64,000 nucleotides of DNA from Pseudoalteromonas rubra (lineage in GTDB: Bacteria; Pseudomonadota; Gammaproteobacteria; Enterobacterales; Alteromonadaceae): the NCBI RefSeq assembly GCF_005886805.2, contig NZ_CP045429.1, positions 248,001-312,000 of the forward strand, in the 5' to 3' direction. Under the pieces are notes generated by a model. It ran no database searches and had not been told where the DNA came from. It saw nothing but the letters and a program-made list of their open reading frames with translations. This document shows, one piece after another, positions 5,535 to 46,311 of the stretch. Positions within the stretch are counted from its first letter, which is position 1, and each line of letters begins with the position of its first letter. A program made the translations under genes and the position numbers.

Positions 5535-6053
5535 ATGGCTGAGAAACGTAATATATTTCTGGTAGGCCCAATGGGGGCTGGTAAGAGCACGATTGGTCGT
5601 CACATTGCGGACCAATTACATCTGGAGTTCTTCGATTCAGATCAAGAAATCGAGCGCCGCACTGGTGCTGATATCTCCTGGGTGTTCGACATTGAAGGGG
5701 AAGAAGGGTTTCGTCGTCGCGAAGAGACCGTGATTTCCGATCTTACCGAAAAGCAAGGCATCGTATTGGCTACTGGCGGCGGCTCGGTCATCAGTAAAGA
5801 GGTACGTAACAAACTATCTGCTCGTGGTATTGTGGTTTATCTTGAGACCCCAATTGAGAAGCAAGTAGCTCGTACCCAGCGCGATAAGCGTCGTCCTTTG
5901 CTACAAACAGAAGAAGATTCACGCGACGTATTAGTGCGTCTGGCAGATGAACGTGAACCACTTTATAAAGAAGTGGCGGATCATGTTGTACGCACAGATG
6001 AACAAAGCGCCAAAGTGGTTGCTAATCAAATCATTGAGAAGTTAGATTTCTAA
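5535..6053 (+). CDS. aroK: Shikimate kinase I
   Basis: Phosphorylates shikimate with ATP in the common aromatic pathway; cytoplasmic. The P-loop GPMGAGKST is at residues 11-19, the shikimate-binding DSD near 34-36, GGG near 80 and the lid arginine region QRDKRRPLL near 116-124. Length 172 matches AroK, and position between pilQ and aroB is the conserved gammaproteobacterial order, which argues for AroK over AroL. The stop is 30 bp before aroB, so the two are probably one transcript; the 151-bp gap after pilQ probably holds its own promoter. Confidence 0.97.
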
Positions 6054-35630: not shown

Positions 35631-35661
35631 GCGCGATTCAGTACACTTTTTCACAGTTCGT

Positions 35662-35750
35662 TACTTGTCGGAGTGCCCATCTGGGCTGAGATCGCAGTAT
35701 TGCGGGATCCGTGGACCTGATCAGGTTAATGCCTGCGTAGGGAACAAGCT
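35662..35750 (+). ncRNA. TPP riboswitch (thi box) upstream of thiC
   Basis: The core of the TPP aptamer is visible: CGGAGTGC (P2 side), GGCTGAGA, and ACCTGATCAGGTTAATGCC followed by GCGTAGGGAA. CTTGT (35664-35668) and ACAAG (35744-35748) can form P1. The 176 bases between it and thiC hold hairpins, including CATGTTG (35790-35796) with CAACATG (35806-35812), that could serve as expression platform. High thiamine pyrophosphate should reduce expression of the whole operon. Confidence 0.95.
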
Positions 35751-35821
35751 ACCTAAGTTGGTATATCGTAAGATATCTAGGTTGCCAGCCATGTTGTGCC
35801 TGTGCCAACATGCTCCACTGA

Positions 35822-37879
<2,058 letters not shown>

Positions 37880-37919
37880 TTGAAGACGGCGGGCCCATTT
37901 GGGCCCGCATGGAGGCAAG

Positions 37920-38939
37920 ATGTCCCAGACAAATAAACCGCGTGTTGCCATCGTCGGTTTTGGCCTGATCGGTCGGGTTGCTGCCTTGATGTTGGCAGAG
38001 CACTTTCACCTGAGTATCTTTGAACGTGATCCGGTCTCGGCGCCTTCCAGCGTCGGAACTTTAGCTGCGGCCATGCTCGCCCCCATGGCTGAATCTGTGA
38101 TTTGTGAGCAAGATCTGGCGGAGCTGGGTTTAGAAGCGATGGCCTTATGGCCTGAGTTGCTGGCCAAACTTGATACGCCGGTATTTTTTCAGCAGCAGGG
38201 GACAGTGATTGTTGCACATCAGCAAGACCGGGGTGATTTACTGAGTTTTCAGCGTCGTCTTAAGCCTCTGGCTGGTCATCAGGCACAAAGCCTGGATGGC
38301 TGTGGTATTGGTGCGTTAGAGCCTGAGTTAGCTGGTCGATTTCATCAGGGTTTGTATTTACCCTGTGAAGGTCAACTCGATAATCTGGCATTCTTTGCGG
38401 CGAGCCTCGGCACATTACAGAACATGGGCATGTGCTTTCATGAGGGGGCTGATGCACAGATTGAACAGGGCCGTGTGAATGGTGAGGCGTTTGACTGGAT
38501 CATCGATTGCCGCGGGTTAGACGCAAAAGCGCAGAGCCCAGGGTTGCGTGGCGTGCGGGGGGAAGTTGCACGCATTTATGCGCCTGAGGTGAACTTACAA
38601 CGCCCAGTACGTCTTATGCATCCGCGTTATCCACTCTATATTGCGCCTAAGCCAAACCATGAATTTGTGATAGGTGCCACCGAAATTGAGTCTCAGGATC
38701 GGGGCGATATCACAGTACGTTCGACGTTGGAGTTGTTATCGGCGGCTTATACGGTGCACAGTGGTTTTGCTGAGGGGCGTGTGATGTCATTACGTGCAGG
38801 GTTACGCCCAGCATATAAAGACAATCGCCCACAAATCAGTGTGACAGACAATGTGATCCGAATAAATGGTCTGTATCGACATGGCTTTTTGCTGGCACCT
38901 GCTGTGGTGCAACAAGCGTTACAACAAGGGGTATTATGA
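37920..38939 (+). CDS. thiO: FAD-dependent glycine oxidase ThiO
   Basis: Oxidises glycine to iminoglycine (dehydroglycine) with oxygen; ThiG uses this to build the thiazole. The start at ATG 37920 follows GGAGGCAAG. An FAD dinucleotide-binding motif, VGFGLIGRVAA (residues 12-22), and a second region GLYRHGFLLAPA near the end (about 318-329) place it in the D-amino acid oxidase family. The 339-residue length and neighbours thiS and thiG identify it as ThiO; no thiH is present. A GGGCCC-ATTT-GGGCCC hairpin (37891-37906) lies in the gap after thiC. Confidence 0.92.
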   Translation: MSQTNKPRVAIVGFGLIGRVAALMLAEHFHLSIFERDPVSAPSSVGTLAAAMLAPMAESVICEQDLAELGLEAMALWPELLAKLDTPVFFQQQGTVIVAHQQDRGDLLSFQRRLKPLAGHQAQSLDGCGIGALEPELAGRFHQGLYLPCEGQLDNLAFFAASLGTLQNMGMCFHEGADAQIEQGRVNGEAFDWIIDCRGLDAKAQSPGLRGVRGEVARIYAPEVNLQRPVRLMHPRYPLYIAPKPNHEFVIGATEIESQDRGDITVRSTLELLSAAYTVHSGFAEGRVMSLRAGLRPAYKDNRPQISVTDNVIRINGLYRHGFLLAPAVVQQALQQGVL

Positions 38940-39133
38940 ATATTAGTTACAATGGTCAGGCACTCACGTTGTCGCAGCCACACTCTCTGTTAGAGGTAAT
39001 TGAAGCACAGGGGGCGCAAGCACCCTACGCGGTTGCGCTCAATGGCCAGTTTGTACCGCGCAGCGGGTTGGCAGAGCAGCAATTGCAAGAAGGTGACAGC
39101 ATTGAGTTGTTATCGCCTATTCAGGGAGGCTGA
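38936..39133 (+). CDS. thiS: Sulfur carrier protein ThiS
   Basis: A 65-residue ubiquitin-like protein whose C-terminal glycine becomes a thiocarboxylate that feeds sulfur to ThiG. The C-terminal Gly-Gly is present (SPIQGG). The start overlaps thiO by 4 bp and the stop overlaps the first ATG of the next frame, so the genes are coupled. Confidence 0.96.
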
Positions 39134-39135
39134 TG

Positions 39136-39927
39136 ATGCAGACTGATAAGCCTTTCACGGTTTATGGAGAGCAGTTTGACAGTCGATTGTTGATAGGCTC
39201 TGCACTTTATCCCTCGCCGGAGGTGATGCAGCAAAGTTTGCTGGCTTCCCGGGCGCAAATCGTGACGGTTTCTTTACGGCGACAAAATTCTGTGTCAGCG
39301 GGGGATGATTTCTGGCAATTGATCAAGGATACTGGTTTGCGGGTATTGCCGAACACTGCCGGGTGTCACAGTGTTAAAGAAGTGGTGACACTGGCGCAAA
39401 TGTGCCGCGAAGTGTTTGCCACTGACTGGATAAAATTGGAACTCATCGGGGATGAATACAATTTACAACCAGATCCGATTGCGTTGCTCGAAGCAACCGA
39501 GATTTTAATAAAGCAAGGGTTTAAAGTGCTGCCCTACTGCACCGATGATTTAGTGGTGTGTCAGCGTCTGGCGGATCTGGGGTGTGAAGTTCTGATGCCC
39601 TGGGGTGCTCCCATAGGTACCGGTAAAGGCTTACTTAATCCCTATAATTTGCAAACCATTCGTGAGCGTCTGCCTGACCATACCCTGATTGTCGATGCGG
39701 GACTGGGCTTGCCATCTCATGCCGTTCAGGCGTTGGAGCTGGGCTATGACGCCGTGTTGCTAAATTCGGCCATTGCAGGTGCCGGGTGTCCTGTGACTAT
39801 GGCCAGCGCCTTTCATCATGCTGTGGTTGCCGGGCGTGCTGCCTATGTGGCGCAGGCGATGCCTGAGAAAGAGGTGGCGGCGCCTTCTACCCCGACAATG
39901 GGTATGCCTTTTTGGCATCAGAATTAA
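39136..39927 (+). CDS. thiG: Thiazole synthase
   Basis: TIM-barrel enzyme combining DXP, dehydroglycine and ThiS-thiocarboxylate to the thiazole phosphate. The 263 residues show [15 protein letters not shown] near the start, LRRQNSV near 50, [12 protein letters not shown] near 74, and [14 protein letters not shown] (catalytic lysine region, about 99-112), plus [12 protein letters not shown] and [11 protein letters not shown]. The ATG at 39136 has GGGAGG six bases upstream; an ATG at 39133 overlaps the thiS stop. Confidence 0.96.
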
Positions 39928-40011: not shown

Positions 40012-41532
40012 GTGGCTGAACTGGTATGGACCATTGCAGGGTCGGACTCGGGTGGGGGAGCAGGCATACAGGCTGATGTGAAAGCTATGCACAGCTTTGG
40101 TGTGCAAACCTGCACGGCCGTAACCGCACTGACGGCGCAAAATAGTCTCGCGGTAGAGGAAATTAACGCGGTGTCCAGTGAAGTACTGGAATCTCAGTTG
40201 CTGGCGCTCGAAGCTGACTTAAAAGCGACTGTGATTAAGATTGGCATGCTCGCTAATAGTACGCAGATCCAGTTGGTTGCAGAGCACTTGGCACAGTACA
40301 AAAGCCGCTGGGAAAGACCGCCTGTGGTGGTTTTTGATCCTGTTGCCATTGCATCCAGTGGCGATGCGCTGACCGAAGAAGATACCCTGGACGCGCTGAA
40401 AAAGTACCTCTTGCCACAGGTTGACGTGATCACGCCCAATACGCAGGAAACACAAGTACTGACTGGAGTATATCTGATTGGCCCAGACGCAGTCAGGGAC
40501 GCTGCCCGTAAACTGAGGGAGCTTGGGGTGAAATCGGTGATTATTAAAGGGGGTCACTGGGATTACCCTAACGGTTACTGTATAGATTATTGCTGGAGCG
40601 AGGGCGAGGAGTATTGGCTTGGGAATGAGGCGATACAAACACCACATAGTCATGGCACTGGTTGTAGCTTTGCATCCTCTGTCGCTGCATGTCTGGCGAA
40701 AGGTTACCCTATCAAAGATGCCTTTATTCTGGCCAAAGCTTACATCAATCAGGGGTTGAAAGTAGCACAACGATTTGGTGAGGGCAGGGGGCCACTGGCC
40801 CACGCCGGGTTCCCAGAGCAGATCAGCGATTTTCCCCAGGTCATAGAGGCGGGCAGCTGGCTGGGCGATGAGCTGGAGTTTGCGGTTAGCGAAGAGTTTA
40901 ACTTTGCCGCAGGCTTTGCACCGGTGGGAGAAGAGTTGGGGCTCTATGCTGTTGTTGATTCTGTAGACTGGGTGGAAAAATGTCTGGCTGAGGGCGTGAA
41001 AACCGTGCAACTCAGAATTAAACAGGCTGACGAAACTACGCTGGAAGAAGACATACAGTGTGCGATCACCTTGGGGGAAAAGTATCAGGGTCGGGTTTTT
41101 ATCAATGACCATTGGGAACTGGCCATTCGCCACGGAGCTTATGGTGTCCATCTTGGTCAGGAAGATTTGGATTCGGCTAACCTGGTTGCCATTCAACAGG
41201 CGGGTTTACGTCTTGGGGTATCAACACATGGTTTTTACGAAATGCTACGCGCTCATAACTACCGACCCAGCTATCTGGCGTTTGGGGCAATATACCCTAC
41301 GACGACGAAAGACATGACAGGTCAGATCCAGGGGCTGGAGAAGCTTAGACATTTTGTGCCCCTGATGCGTGAGACGTATCCTACAGTGGCTATTGGGGGG
41401 ATCGACCTGACTCGTGCTCCTCAGGTCGCTGCGACGGGGGTCGGGAGCGTCGCGGTGGTGCGTGCCATTACAGAGGCCAGTGACCACAGGCAAGCGATTA
41501 TTGACCTGAAACGGGCCACGGGCGAATCATGA
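40012..41532 (+). CDS. thiDE: ThiD-ThiE fusion: HMP-P kinase / thiamine phosphate synthase
   Basis: One 506-residue chain carries two consecutive activities. The N-terminal half (about 1-265) is ThiD, phosphorylating HMP-P: TIAGSDSGGGAGIQADVKA (about 7-25), with FDPVAIASSG and THGTGCSFASS-like SHGTGCSFASS near 216-226. The C-terminal half (about 305-500) is ThiE, joining HMP-PP with thiazole-P: LYAVVDSV, VQLRIK, FINDHWELAI, GVHLGQEDL, and AIYPTTTK. Such fusions occur in several gammaproteobacteria. Start is GTG 40012, after TAGGAG. The end overlaps thiF by 4 bp. Confidence 0.95.
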   Translation: MAELVWTIAGSDSGGGAGIQADVKAMHSFGVQTCTAVTALTAQNSLAVEEINAVSSEVLESQLLALEADLKATVIKIGMLANSTQIQLVAEHLAQYKSRWERPPVVVFDPVAIASSGDALTEEDTLDALKKYLLPQVDVITPNTQETQVLTGVYLIGPDAVRDAARKLRELGVKSVIIKGGHWDYPNGYCIDYCWSEGEEYWLGNEAIQTPHSHGTGCSFASSVAACLAKGYPIKDAFILAKAYINQGLKVAQRFGEGRGPLAHAGFPEQISDFPQVIEAGSWLGDELEFAVSEEFNFAAGFAPVGEELGLYAVVDSVDWVEKCLAEGVKTVQLRIKQADETTLEEDIQCAITLGEKYQGRVFINDHWELAIRHGAYGVHLGQEDLDSANLVAIQQAGLRLGVSTHGFYEMLRAHNYRPSYLAFGAIYPTTTKDMTGQIQGLEKLRHFVPLMRETYPTVAIGGIDLTRAPQVAATGVGSVAVVRAITEASDHRQAIIDLKRATGES

Positions 41533-42281
41533 GTACAGAGCTCAATGACAAAGAGCGGCTTAGGTACAGTCGTCATTTGCTCCTCAATGCAGTATCTGAA
41601 GCTGGCCAGATGCGGCTCAAAGCGGCCCGAGTGGCCGTAATTGGGTGTGGTGGCCTGGGAAGCCCTGCGCTATTTTACTTAGCGGCAAGCGGTGTTGGTC
41701 AGTTGACCTTTTGTGATGATGATGCGGTTGAATTGTCGAATTTGCAAAGGCAGATTTTGTATAAGATTAATCACATTGGCCAGTCAAAAGCAAAAGCAGC
41801 AGGAAAAGTCTTAGCGAGTCTGAATAATCAAATTTCACTTATCCCACTGTCATTGAAGCTCGACACGAGCAATATAGACTCGGTTTTGCAAGACAGTGAC
41901 TGGATCCTCGATTGCAGCGATAATTTCGCCACGCGCTACTTACTGAATCAGTATTGCCTGCGTGAACGTAAAGTACTTATCTCTGGCGCAGCGCTGGGCA
42001 CTCAGGGACAGTTTATGACGTTTGACTTCAGAGCATCGTCTCCTTGCTATCATTGCGTCTTCCCTGAGTCGCCAGAATCTACCGAATTAAATTGTCAGAA
42101 TGCCGGCGTAGTCAGCCCATTGCTTGGCATGATTGGCTCTATGCAGGCTATGAAAGCGGTCAGTTTGATTGTCTCTGGTGTACCAGACAAGGCGAGTGAG
42201 ATGATAGTGGTTGATGCGTTAAGTTTGCAGCAGAGGCAATTTGCACTGGAAAAAGATCCCGCATGTACGGTGTGCTGCTAA
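41529..42281 (+). CDS. thiF: ThiF: adenylyltransferase of ThiS
   Basis: E1-like enzyme that adenylates the C-terminus of ThiS so that sulfur can be loaded. The 250 residues contain the Rossmann ATP site VIGCGGLGSPA (about 37-47), the arginine-rich NLQRQILY, and DNFATRYLLN (catalytic aspartate region, about 131-140). Two CxxC pairs (CYHC near 177-180 and CTVCC at the end) hold zinc. The sequence and length fit canonical ThiF/MoeB/HesA, so a second use as a RiPP-modifying enzyme is only speculation; see the next gene. Confidence 0.93.
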   Translation: MSTELNDKERLRYSRHLLLNAVSEAGQMRLKAARVAVIGCGGLGSPALFYLAASGVGQLTFCDDDAVELSNLQRQILYKINHIGQSKAKAAGKVLASLNNQISLIPLSLKLDTSNIDSVLQDSDWILDCSDNFATRYLLNQYCLRERKVLISGAALGTQGQFMTFDFRASSPCYHCVFPESPESTELNCQNAGVVSPLLGMIGSMQAMKAVSLIVSGVPDKASEMIVVDALSLQQRQFALEKDPACTVCC

Positions 42282-42338: not shown

Positions 42339-42512
42339 ATGAAAATCACACTCTCTAAAAAGAACCTCAAACAATTAAGCTCGCAAAGACGTGAGATAAA
42401 CCCGCAGGAAACCCCTAAAGTTGCTGGTGGGGTGTCGGTACTTGCGCCTTGCTATACAGGCCCGGCTGGTTCGTGCGTCTGGTCTGTGTGTACGCTGATT
42501 GGATGTCCTTAA
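42339..42512 (+). CDS. Putative double-glycine-leader RiPP/bacteriocin precursor peptide
   Basis: A 57-codon gene (ATG 42339, TAA 42510-42512) in the gap between thiF and psd; the ribosome site AAGGA is seven bases before the ATG. The N-terminal 31 residues form a leader: basic, with MKITLSKKNLKQLSSQRR then NPQETPKVAGG, ending in the Gly-Gly cleavage motif preceded by a small residue. The remaining 26 residues begin VSVLAPCYTG, contain four cysteines (peptide positions 38, 46, 51, 56) and five Ser/Thr, and end LIGCP. This layout is that of a C39-peptidase-cleaved bacteriocin or natural product precursor, resembling leaders with LSKKxLKxLS. No modification enzyme, C39 transporter or immunity gene is adjacent. 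It lies 57 bp after thiF, with no terminator between, and before a strong shared terminator. No match was searched. Confidence 0.7.
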   Translation: MKITLSKKNLKQLSSQRREINPQETPKVAGGVSVLAPCYTGPAGSCVWSVCTLIGCP

Positions 42513-42544: not shown

Positions 42545-42582
42545 GACACTAAAAAGCCCGCATGCGCGGGCTTTTTAGTGTC
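42545..42582. terminator. Bidirectional terminator closing the thi operon and psd
   Basis: 38-bp perfect palindrome with CCCGC-ATGC-GCGGG at the centre and AAAAAG/CTTTTT arms, extended to GACACT/AGTGTC. Highly stable, between convergent operons; the precursor peptide gene lies upstream of it. Confidence 0.93.
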
Positions 42583-42596
42583 TTATTTGGGTGGGG

Positions 42597-43463
42597 TTAT
42601 TCACGAATGGTCGCGAATGGCGTGCCCATGCGGGTGACTGTCTCTGGCAACTGGTTTGCGAGGAAGTCGGCTTTATCTTCTCCCCAGGCCAGGATCACCG
42701 TTGAGCCCAGCTTAAAGCGGCCCATCTCGTCGCCTTTTTTCAATTTAACGGCGTTGTCGCCCTCTGCGGGATAATCCCAGCTAAAGACGTCTTTGCCGGC
42801 TGGTGGCGTGACTGTGCCCGCCCAGATGGTTTCGATGCTGGCCACTATGGTGGCGCCCACCAGTACCATAGCCAGTGGACCTATCTCAGTGTCAAAGATA
42901 GCGACAACCCGCTCGTTACGAGCAAACAGATTAGGGACGTTTTGCGCAGTTAGCGGGTTTACCGAGAACAGATCGCCAGGTACGTAGATCATCTTTTTCA
43001 GCGTACCATCAAGGGGCATATGAATGCGGTGATAGTCTTTGGGCGCCAGATAAATGGTGGCAAACTTACCACCAAGATACGGTGCTACGTCGGATTCTTT
43101 GCCCCCCAGCAGGGTTTGCAGGCTGTAGTCATGGCCTTTGGCCTGAATGATCTGACCATCGACTACATCACCTAACTGGCTGATGGCACCGTCGACCGGG
43201 TGAGCCACAATGCTGGCTTCTTCGGCAAGTGGGCGGATCCCCGGCTTCAGCGGACGGGTAAAGAATTCATTAAAGGTTTTATAGTGAGCTGGATCTTCAT
43301 GCAGGGCTTCACTCATGTCTATCTTGTACTGTTTGATAAACAATTTAATTAAGGTGGTTGTCAGTGCACCCGCTTCGGCTGCGGCCAGTTTTCCCACCAA
43401 ACGTGATACGGCATGTTTGGGTAAAGCATATTGCAGGGCAATCTTTAGTTTATCCAAGTTCAC
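42597..43463 (-). CDS. psd: Phosphatidylserine decarboxylase proenzyme
   Basis: Inner-membrane pyruvoyl enzyme producing phosphatidylethanolamine. I use GTG at 43463 (288 residues; family length about 280-320), because AGGAA is 8 bases upstream and the protein then reads as typical [15 protein letters not shown]. The self-cleavage motif LGST is near residue 252, and catalytic HMPLDG, HPVDG and [13 protein letters not shown] are present. It follows rsgA by 34 bp on the same strand, as in E. coli. Confidence 0.95.
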
Positions 43464-43497
43464 TTTTATTATTCCTGAAAAAATTTTGAAGATAGTA

Positions 43498-44550
43498 TCA
43501 AACTCTTGGCGCGCGCGCACCTGCGCGACCATCCGCCATTGACTCCAGAATACGATGATAGCTGTCAAAGCGCAGCTCGCTGATCTTGCCCTCATCAACC
43601 GCTTCCAGGATCAGACAACCCGGATCGTTAAGGTGTTTGCAGTCACGAAAACGACAGCCGCCGATAAACTCACGAAACTCTTTAAAACACCAGGTTACCC
43701 GCTCAACCTCCAGGTGCCACAGACCGAACTCACGGATCCCCGGACTGTCTATCAGATTACCGCCACTGGGCAGGTGATGCAGTTTAGAAACCGTGGTGGT
43801 GTGCTGACCCAGGCCACTGTTTTCAGACACTTCCTGGGTCAGGATGGCTGCATCAGGCAGTACCGTATTGACCAGTGTTGACTTCCCGACTCCAGACTGA
43901 CCAACGAAGATATTATTCTTTTCTGTTAGCAGGGCTTTGAGCTCATCGATCCCTTCGCCAGTCTTGTTACTGACCAGTAAGACGCGGTAGCCTAAGTCGC
44001 GATAGATATCCAAGACTTCATCGACATAGTCGAGGCCTTCGTCATCGAGCAGATCGACCTTGTTGAGCAACAGAATTGGTTCAATACCCATGTCTTCACA
44101 GGCGACCAGGTAACGGTCAATGATCTGTGGGGTAAATTCAGGCACCACGGCGGACACCATTAAAATCTGATCTATGTTGGCTGCCACCACCTTAACGCCA
44201 TCATAAAAATCCGGACGAGTAAGCTGAGAGCGTCGAGGCTCGACGGCTTCTATGACGCCGGCCAAATCGCCTTCGCTCACTTTGGCGCGACGGAAAATCA
44301 CTTCGTCACCACACACTAAGCTGGTGACGGTACGGCGGATATTGCAGCGTAGCACGTCGCCATTTTCGCACTCGATATCGGCATGTTGCCCAAAGCGACT
44401 GATCACCACGGCGGGTTCTGTGGGGCCCAGATTGTCTGTTTGCCAGCTTACCTGAGTGTCGGATTGTTGTTTCGCTTTATGCAAGCGTTTTTGATGATTG
44501 GCACTGATCCGTCTGGATTGGCCCTTACTGAGTTTTTTGCGTTTTGCCAT
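43498..44550 (-). CDS. rsgA: Ribosome small subunit-dependent GTPase A
   Basis: Circularly permuted GTPase that checks 30S maturation. The permuted motif order is visible: G4 NKVD (about residue 158), then G1 GQSGVGKST (about 217-225), then G3 DSPGIREF (about 267-274). The C-terminal zinc domain has [14 protein letters not shown] (about 302-315). The N-terminal OB domain is preceded by a basic tail. Length 350. Divergent from orn, as in E. coli. Confidence 0.95.
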
Positions 44551-45527: not shown

Positions 45528-45603
45528 GCGGCACTAGCTCAGCTGGTAGAGCGCGACCTTGCCAAGGTCGAGGTCACGAGTTCGAACCTCGTGTGCCGCT
45601 CCA
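45528..45603 (+). tRNA. glyV: tRNA-Gly (GCC), copy 1
   Basis: Complete 76-base cloverleaf with encoded CCA. Acceptor GCGGCAC/GTGCCGC; D-arm GCTC/GAGC; anticodon arm CGACC-TTGCCAA-GGTCG with GCC; T-arm ACGAG-TTCGAAC-CTCGT. Symbol by analogy to E. coli glyVXY near orn. Confidence 0.97.
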
Positions 45604-45652
45604 ATCTACAATCAGTTTACTCAACTGACTAAAAAAGAGTACTTATGGTGAT

Positions 45653-45728
45653 GCGGCACTAGCTCAGCTGGTAGAGCGCGACCTTGCCAAGGTCGAGGTC
45701 ACGAGTTCGAACCTCGTGTGCCGCTCCA
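45653..45728 (+). tRNA. tRNA-Gly (GCC), copy 2
   Basis: Identical in sequence to the gene at 45528 including CCA; starts exactly 125 bases after it, so gene plus spacer were duplicated together. Confidence 0.97.
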
Positions 45729-45740
45729 ATCTATAAGCAG

Positions 45741-45787
45741 CCTTGCCAAGGTCGAGGTCACGAGTTCGAACCTCGTGTGCCGCTCCA
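45741..45787 (+). pseudogene. tRNA-Gly 3' fragment
   Basis: Bases from CCTTGCCAAGG through the terminal CCA match the 3' 47 bases of tRNA-Gly, but the acceptor 5' strand and D-arm are missing. It looks like an internal deletion between a spacer (ending AAGCAG) and the anticodon arm of a further copy. Confidence 0.85.
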
Positions 45788-45836
45788 ATCTACAATCAGT
45801 TTACTCAACTGACTAAAAAAGAGTACTTATGGTGAT

Positions 45837-45912
45837 GCGGCACTAGCTCAGCTGGTAGAGCGCGACCTTGCCAAGGTCGAGGTCACGAGTTCGAACCTCG
45901 TGTGCCGCTCCA
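45837..45912 (+). tRNA. tRNA-Gly (GCC), copy 3
   Basis: Full 76-base gene identical to the other copies, GCC anticodon, CCA encoded. Confidence 0.97.
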
Positions 45913-45961
45913 ATCTATAAGCAGTTTACTCAACTGATTAAAAACGAGTATTTATTGTGAT

Positions 45962-46037
45962 GCGGCACTAGCTCAGCTGGTAGAGCGCGACCTTGCCAAG
46001 GTCGAGGTCACGAGTTCGAACCTCGTGTGCCGCTCCA
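45962..46037 (+). tRNA. tRNA-Gly (GCC), copy 4
   Basis: Identical full gene, again 125 bases after the preceding copy; the spacer differs by a few bases from the earlier one. Confidence 0.97.
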
Positions 46038-46077
46038 ACACTTCTTCAGGTGTATAAACTAGATACTTTATTATGAA

Positions 46078-46147
46078 GCGGCACTAGCTCAGCTGCTAAA
46101 CGTTAGACGCGACCTCAAGGTTGCGCCCAGCGGGAAACTAAGAGCTA
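46078..46147 (+). pseudogene. Degenerate tRNA-Gly copy 3 (tandem 79-bp unit)
   Basis: Starts like tRNA-Gly through CTCAGCTG, then CTAAACGTTAGACGCGACC. It folds as a hairpin: outer TAGCTC (46085-46090) with GAGCTA (46142-46147), inner GCGACC-TCAA-GGTTGC (46109-46124). First of two tandem 79-base units. Confidence 0.75.
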
Positions 46148-46156
46148 CATTGTGAT

Positions 46157-46226
46157 GCGGCACTGGCTCAGCTGCTAAACGTTAGACGCGACCTCAAGGT
46201 TGCACCCAGCGGGAAACTAAGAGCTA
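46157..46226 (+). pseudogene. Degenerate tRNA-Gly copy 4 (tandem 79-bp unit)
   Basis: Second 79-base unit. The outer arm reads TGGCTC instead of TAGCTC, which still pairs with GAGCTA through a G-U pair, and the inner GCGACC-TCAA-GGTTGC stem is intact. Confidence 0.75.
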
Positions 46227-46235
46227 CATTGTGAT

Positions 46236-46311
46236 GCGGCACTAGCTCAGCTGGTAGAGCGCGACCTTGCCAAGGTCGAGGTCACGAGTTCGAACCTCGT
46301 GTGCCGCTCCA
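46236..46311 (+). tRNA. tRNA-Gly (GCC), copy 5
   Basis: Last intact copy, identical 76-base gene with CCA. No clear hairpin terminator follows; a T-rich stretch (46337-46356) may end transcription. Confidence 0.97.

Follow-up and report, generated by a model that had tools for sequence, protein, structure and literature searches.

Many scattered precursor genes served by one promiscuous class II enzyme are known from the prochlorosins, as described in the available part of PMC10783134. Class I lanthipeptides have been described from Pseudoalteromonas, including the pseudorosins A to C with the dehydratase PsfB in Pseudoalteromonas flavipulchra S16 (Wang et al. 2023, as cited in the accessible sections of PMC12819058 and PMC10885120) and PciA/PciC of Pseudoalteromonas citrea DSM 8771, a lanthipeptide that is modified when produced heterologously in E. 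coli (PMC9993889, available in part). The class I precursors (LanAs) of Bacteroidetes have leaders with an LxLxKx5L motif, many of which end in Gly-Gly, and they are often accompanied by a C39 protease, according to the accessible text of a survey by Walker et al. 2020 (PMC7268733). The gene described here lies in a window of 64,000 nucleotides, which is the whole stretch of DNA analyzed. It is very probably a class I LanA gene, one of about 31 in a dispersed library that a single LanB/LanC/C39-exporter gene run would serve in trans.

A precursor gene behind thiF

The preliminary description, made from the sequence of the window, reported a 57-codon frame with a ribosome site between thiF and a strong terminator. 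The frame, an AAGGAA site, and a hairpin with a 17-bp stem are all present (Table 1). The leader of the product is basic and closes with KVAGG, and the counts given for the tail that follows (26 residues with four cysteines and five Ser/Thr) agree with those obtained here. The ATG lies 57 nt 3' of the thiF stop codon (42281), and the precursor is the final gene of a same-strand run, thiC-thiO-thiS-thiG-thiDE-thiF, in which we take the small frame before thiG to be thiS because of its position and its C-terminal GG. The gene neighbors of the precursor are thiF and psd, with no adjacent immunity gene. A row of five tRNA genes of equal score and length is located at 45528-46308 of the window.

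Table 1. Features of the thiamine operon and of the precursor gene at its end, in window positions
Feature	Positions	Strand	Basis
TPP riboswitch, at the head of the run from thiC to the precursor	35659..35760	+	Rfam RF00059, 82.6 bits
thiC (longest frame; real start possibly further in)	35822..37879	+	Pfam ThiC_Rad_SAM
thiO-like FAD oxidoreductase	37899..38939	+	Pfam DAO
thiS (presumed)	38936..39133	+	ORF
thiG	39133..39927	+	Pfam ThiG
thiD-thiE fusion	40012..41532	+	Pfam Phos_pyr_kin and TMP-TENI
thiF, directly 5' of the precursor	41529..42281	+	Pfam ThiF
Ribosome binding site AAGGAA	42328..42333	+	Sequence, directly 5' of the ATG
Precursor gene, 57 codons and stop	42339..42512	+	ATG to TAA; paralogues and G007 orthologue
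Leader, 31 aa, MKITLSKKNLKQLSSQRREINPQETPKVAGG, Gly-Gly at the end	42339..42431	+	Alignment of 31 paralogues
Core, 26 aa, VSVLAPCYTGPAGSCVWSVCTLIGCP, 4 Cys and 5 Ser/Thr	42432..42509	+	Sequence; G007 orthologue
Intrinsic terminator, 17-bp stem, separating the thi operon from psd	42545..42582	+	Terminator scan; similar hairpin in five relatives
psd, convergent neighbor	42597..43598	-	Pfam PS_Dcarbxylase

The terminator scan found no terminator between thiF and the precursor. Because the precursor is last in a thiamine operon that begins with a riboswitch, read-through from thiF and control by TPP are to be expected, and the window precursor would thereby come under thiamine control. The scan by itself is weak evidence for the terminator behind the precursor, since its single hit in this stretch is no more than shuffled sequence gives (mean, 1.3); a hairpin of like type that closes thiF in five relatives backs the terminator call. 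In five Pseudoalteromonas genomes, three of which are called P. rubra, the thiF stop codon is followed by about 15 nt, the hairpin, and psd, and the precursor is absent. The name of these relatives, which share the thiamine locus, also fits the Pseudoalteromonas-like host proposed in the preliminary description. Of the 107 other genomes of the genus, only G007 yielded a close orthologue of the window gene. Another six match the window precursor at 36-38% identity; their cores differ, and thiF is not adjacent.

A dispersed family with a common leader

The window precursor has no match in NCBIfam and a single match, far under the cut-off, in Pfam, where no Nif11-type match was obtained. As a single query, it retrieved only one cluster, 98% identical, from the protein database and nothing past one near-identical cluster from genome contigs. 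The family became visible in whole-genome searches and alignment-based searches, having been missed by the single-sequence database searches. With the window protein alone, the whole-genome search yielded 28 matches at an E value of ≤10, of which 24 (the window protein counted) were family members on read-out, most of them aligning in the leader only. An alignment of these 24 members then matched 32 genomic places at an E value of ≤0.001, 31 of which hold intact genes. The start-less member at the remaining place (C1:3231065, in L040) has an intact member about 340 nt away and is probably a relic. The larger replicon carries 25 of the intact genes and the smaller carries 6; one lies in the window. 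They are mostly single, with a few loose pairs, and their contexts vary, some being close 3' of same-strand genes and some alone. The 31 intact paralogues with a common leader, together with the syntenic orthologue in G007, place the window gene beyond chance.

A common flanking mobile element was considered as the means of spread and rejected, as no 8-mer occurs in more than 7 of the 31 flanks and the commonest one is the ribosome site. The stop codons of two precursors, in L010 (from 15691) and L013 (precursor end 3824), abut a MITE-like inverted repeat starting TAATACCAATT; two precursors are too few for this repeat to explain the dispersal.

The majority leader in the alignment of 31 reads MKLxLxKKxLKxL...TPxxAGG, in which K11, L13, T25, and G30 are invariant throughout. 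The strict LxLxKx5L motif is present in 16 of the 31 leaders, and a looser motif, with other hydrophobic residues or K in the first position and K/R/E in the fifth, is present in 24; the window leader fits the looser form, with I replacing the first L. Twenty-seven leaders end in GG and four in GA. Median local alignment scores, computed with two leader boundaries set far too early and several set one residue too late, were 57 between leaders, 18 between cores, and 17 between shuffled cores, which indicates that most cores in this genome are detectably alike only in composition. With the boundaries corrected, cysteine accounts for 95 of the 836 core residues, the same number as with the earlier boundaries, versus 2 of the 936 leader residues. 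At least two cysteines occur in 28 cores, several of which, including the window core, have an even number; one core has a single cysteine and two have none, so rings are not required in every member. Two neighboring Cys-less cores (L045:4026-4169 and 5656-5799; C1:1033-1035 kb) share the motif DTHSITQ, and these peptides may be exported unringed or merely dehydrated.

The NCBIfam models of class I leaders matched weakly, L1a in 4 and L1b in 2 of the 24 members (best E value, 0.0032), and one of three members from other genomes matches L1b under the cut-off. In the protein database, 71 family proteins were found; those with names are nearly all called "hypothetical protein," and none of those listed is called a lanthipeptide. 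A protein from outside the genus (P0044, Thalassomonas actiniarum) matches the family with an E value of 7.9e-8.

The close relative G007 has 42 family matches, and 23 of the 31 genes have a same-place orthologue there. These pairs were drawn from 30 of the 42 matches, among which the other eight genes have no orthologue; one pair (L044) is syntenic in one flank only, and in another (L015) the leader end is cut three residues late. Pooled over the 23 syntenic pairs, leaders had a dN/dS of 0.10 and cores one of 0.07, and the unchanged core residues comprise 74 of 75 Cys, 97 of 99 Ser/Thr, and 433 of 458 others. Such strong purifying selection indicates that the cores are products preserved between two species and not a freely drifting library. 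The window peptide and its G007 orthologue, which also lies behind thiF, are identical in 55 of 57 residues with all four cysteines kept; with only two residues differing between two genomes, this peptide is too uniform for a selection test of its own. Conservation of leader and cysteines, which the preliminary description named as a check, was thus found in G007, and the cores differ among the paralogues. The core of L019 in this genome has look-alikes in six more Pseudoalteromonas genomes (L106-L111), where it reads MYASSPHxPGCISYNGW(T/G)CNSMYNC, which indicates that some cores persist across the genus and that not all are unique.

The lan gene run and its distribution

A trans-acting enzyme had been called for because no maturase gene adjoins the precursor, and a search of the genome for LanB/C and C39 ABC transporter genes had been suggested. 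One of each was found: a single LanB of 1,049 aa carrying Lant_dehydr_N and Lant_dehydr_C, one stand-alone LanC of 406 aa, and a single C39 peptidase, which heads an ABC exporter. Together with an HlyD-type adaptor, they form a contiguous run at C1:4543-4551 kb. On a circular map of the 4.6-Mb replicon, this run lies about 334 kb from the window gene, and on a linear map, 4.25 Mb. A motif scan, a scan for small frames with ribosome sites, and the whole-genome profile search all failed to reveal a precursor within or next to these lan genes. The LanB matches NisB and two further solved dehydratases by sequence, and the exporter matches solved bacteriocin exporters. NisC is matched by the LanC, whose WCYG and CHG motifs align with those of the solved LanC-like proteins 8byk and 3t33, and the Cys, His, and Asp of the C39 domain line up with those of the solved exporter 8vp3; all these aligned residues presumably have their usual roles. 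Among plasmid records, the five best matches to the LanB, with identities of 28.8-31.2%, come from Spirosoma, Hymenobacter, and Fibrella, genera of the Bacteroidetes. The genome contains only two LANC_like proteins, the stand-alone LanC and a class III LanKC, and no class II LanM. The LanKC (RamC_N, kinase, and LANC_like domains) is encoded at C2:175-178 kb, in a stretch (L039:4317-9756; C2:172-178 kb) where the neighboring genes encode an S9 peptidase and a protein of 296 aa that matches nothing in Pfam.

Among 108 genomes of the genus, precursors occur in 51 and LanB occurs in 51, and the two sets are identical. The chance of an exact match would be 5e-32 if the genomes were independent, a value that overstates the case since they are related and the counts were taken without phylogenetic correction. 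The number of precursors per genome ranges from 1 to at least 60, with a median of 23 and at least 60 in 7 of the 51 genomes. No more than 400 nt separate LanC from LanB in all but one of the 51, the exception being G001, in which LanB is present and LanC is absent. In an order-wide draw of 394 genomes, the leader was found in 5 (2 in the genus and 3 outside it), all of which have LanB; the best 16 leader candidates were scored per genome under a stricter leader limit of 1e-4, so that absence is weaker evidence in this draw. Three genomes of the order have weaker LanB matches (E values of 1.7e-20 to 9.5e-4) and no leader match. The leader family directly adjoins lanC-lanB in four genomes, two from a sister genus (G444 and G360), one from another family (G203), and one from the same genus (G041), and this gene order is support independent of genome counting.

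No C39 exporter was recognized in the 16-19 kb around lanB of G041, G016, and G001. The stretches of that size from G001 (L189) and G016 (L188) each contain one precursor, with a single cysteine in the former and none in the latter, and both resemble either a decaying system or a variant limited to dehydration. A Cys-less member is also found near the lan genes of G007 (L187:15703-15852).

Proposed working, alternatives, and known systems

The assignment of the window product to the double-glycine-leader RiPP precursors is supported by the family, the leader alignment, and the enzyme set. Among the chemistries offered in the preliminary description (lanthipeptide, disulfide, or thioether), class I lanthipeptide is clearly the best; the membership in 31 paralogues had been missed. 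The genes, their distribution, and their conservation are results of computation, from which we infer dehydration, ring formation, export, regulation, and any biological activity. The common leader, of LxLxKx5L type and ending in Gly-Gly, would be bound in trans by the single LanB, which would dehydrate core Ser/Thr with glutamyl-tRNA as the donor. The single LanC would then join cysteines into (methyl)lanthionine rings, the C39 peptidase of the ABC exporter would cleave after the Gly-Gly, and the exporter with its HlyD-type adaptor would secrete the product. The window precursor, transcribed onward from thiF under the control of the TPP riboswitch, would be made at thiamine scarcity. Several points stand against this explanation: no precursor was detected at the lan run of this genome, the matches to leader models are weak, some cores lack cysteine, a LanKC is also present, the genomes behind the co-occurrence are related, no exporter was recognized around lanB in G041, G016, and G001, G001 has no LanC, and three genomes of the order with weaker LanB matches have no leader match.

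The Gly-Gly leaders and the one C39 exporter would also suit unmodified or disulfide-bridged peptides, resembling microcins or class II bacteriocins, that share only the exporter while LanBC modifies a few of them, and the two Cys-less cores and the cores with even cysteine numbers fit such peptides as well. However, precursors occur in exactly those genomes of the genus that have LanB, whereas C39 is common elsewhere: a search for C39 in this genome and 14 control genomes found the domain in 8 of the 14 controls, none of which has LanB. The same leader, moreover, adjoins lanC-lanB in relatives and carries the motif that the accessible text of PMC7268733 gives for class I LanAs. Peptides of this kind are therefore an improbable explanation. 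Maturation by another enzyme is less probable again; candidates are the class III LanKC, encoded on the second replicon, and RiPP enzymes such as those of the radical-SAM or YcaO type. The LanKC gene lies less than 10 kb from one precursor, and the NCBIfam model TIGR04149 of rSAM-modified RiPPs weakly matches 2 of the 24 members, but LanKC-like matches (frames of 890-931 aa) were found in just 10 of the 51 precursor genomes versus LanB in all 51, for which reason LanKC as the maturase was ranked low. Radical-SAM or YcaO enzymes may still contribute additional tailoring.

The least likely reading is that of a relic, decaying or selfish, from which no product is made. The site is empty in five Pseudoalteromonas genomes and one paralogue has no start, as would be seen with such a relic; against it stand the pooled dN/dS of 0.07 to 0.10 over 23 pairs and the AGGA ribosome sites, which 25 of the 31 paralogues have no more than 18 nt from the start.

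In a tentative and rather doubtful extension of the class I library reading, Pseudoalteromonas would hold the largest class I libraries yet seen, with one leader-guided enzyme set and genes wired singly into unrelated host transcription units. Each lanthipeptide would then be made in its own physiological state, the window peptide on thiamine shortage through the TPP riboswitch, and every core would be individually preserved by selection between close species, unlike in a freely diversifying library. The purifying selection on cores would make the question of why bacteria keep dozens of lanthipeptides testable in cultivable marine bacteria. One enzyme set may yield a whole natural-product library, and a LanB/LanC pair with about 30 natural substrates would strongly aid lanthipeptide engineering. 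To our knowledge, the naturally promiscuous lanthipeptide systems are of class II (cf. the available part of PMC9872173). Genome mining that is restricted to enzyme-adjacent precursors overlooks a dispersed arrangement.

Class I lanthipeptides in Pseudoalteromonas and scattered class II precursors are already known. A dispersed class I library of such scale was not found in the literature searched, which leaves out most subscription journals, and in that sense may be new. The pseudorosins, likened here by their description in the available parts of the citing papers, are class I lanthipeptides of Pseudoalteromonas as well. PciA/PciC, compared by the description in the accessible part of PMC9993889 only, share genus and class with the window family and are described as a gene cluster, with no mention of dispersed copies there. 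The LanAs of Bacteroidetes have the leader motif of the window family but occur in clusters, as described in the available text of PMC7268733; according to the same text, the survey looked no further than seven genes from LanC, so dispersed genes would have escaped it. The arrangement itself is like that of ProcA/ProcM and SyncA/SyncM of marine picocyanobacteria, with many scattered precursors, one leader, and one enzyme set. Prochlorosins and synechococsins depend on a class II LanM and a Nif11-type leader, whereas the family described here, in a gammaproteobacterium, has LanB and LanC and an LxLxKx5L-GG leader that is basic and, at about 30 residues, short. By analogy, the window family is best explained as a putative class I counterpart of the prochlorosins.
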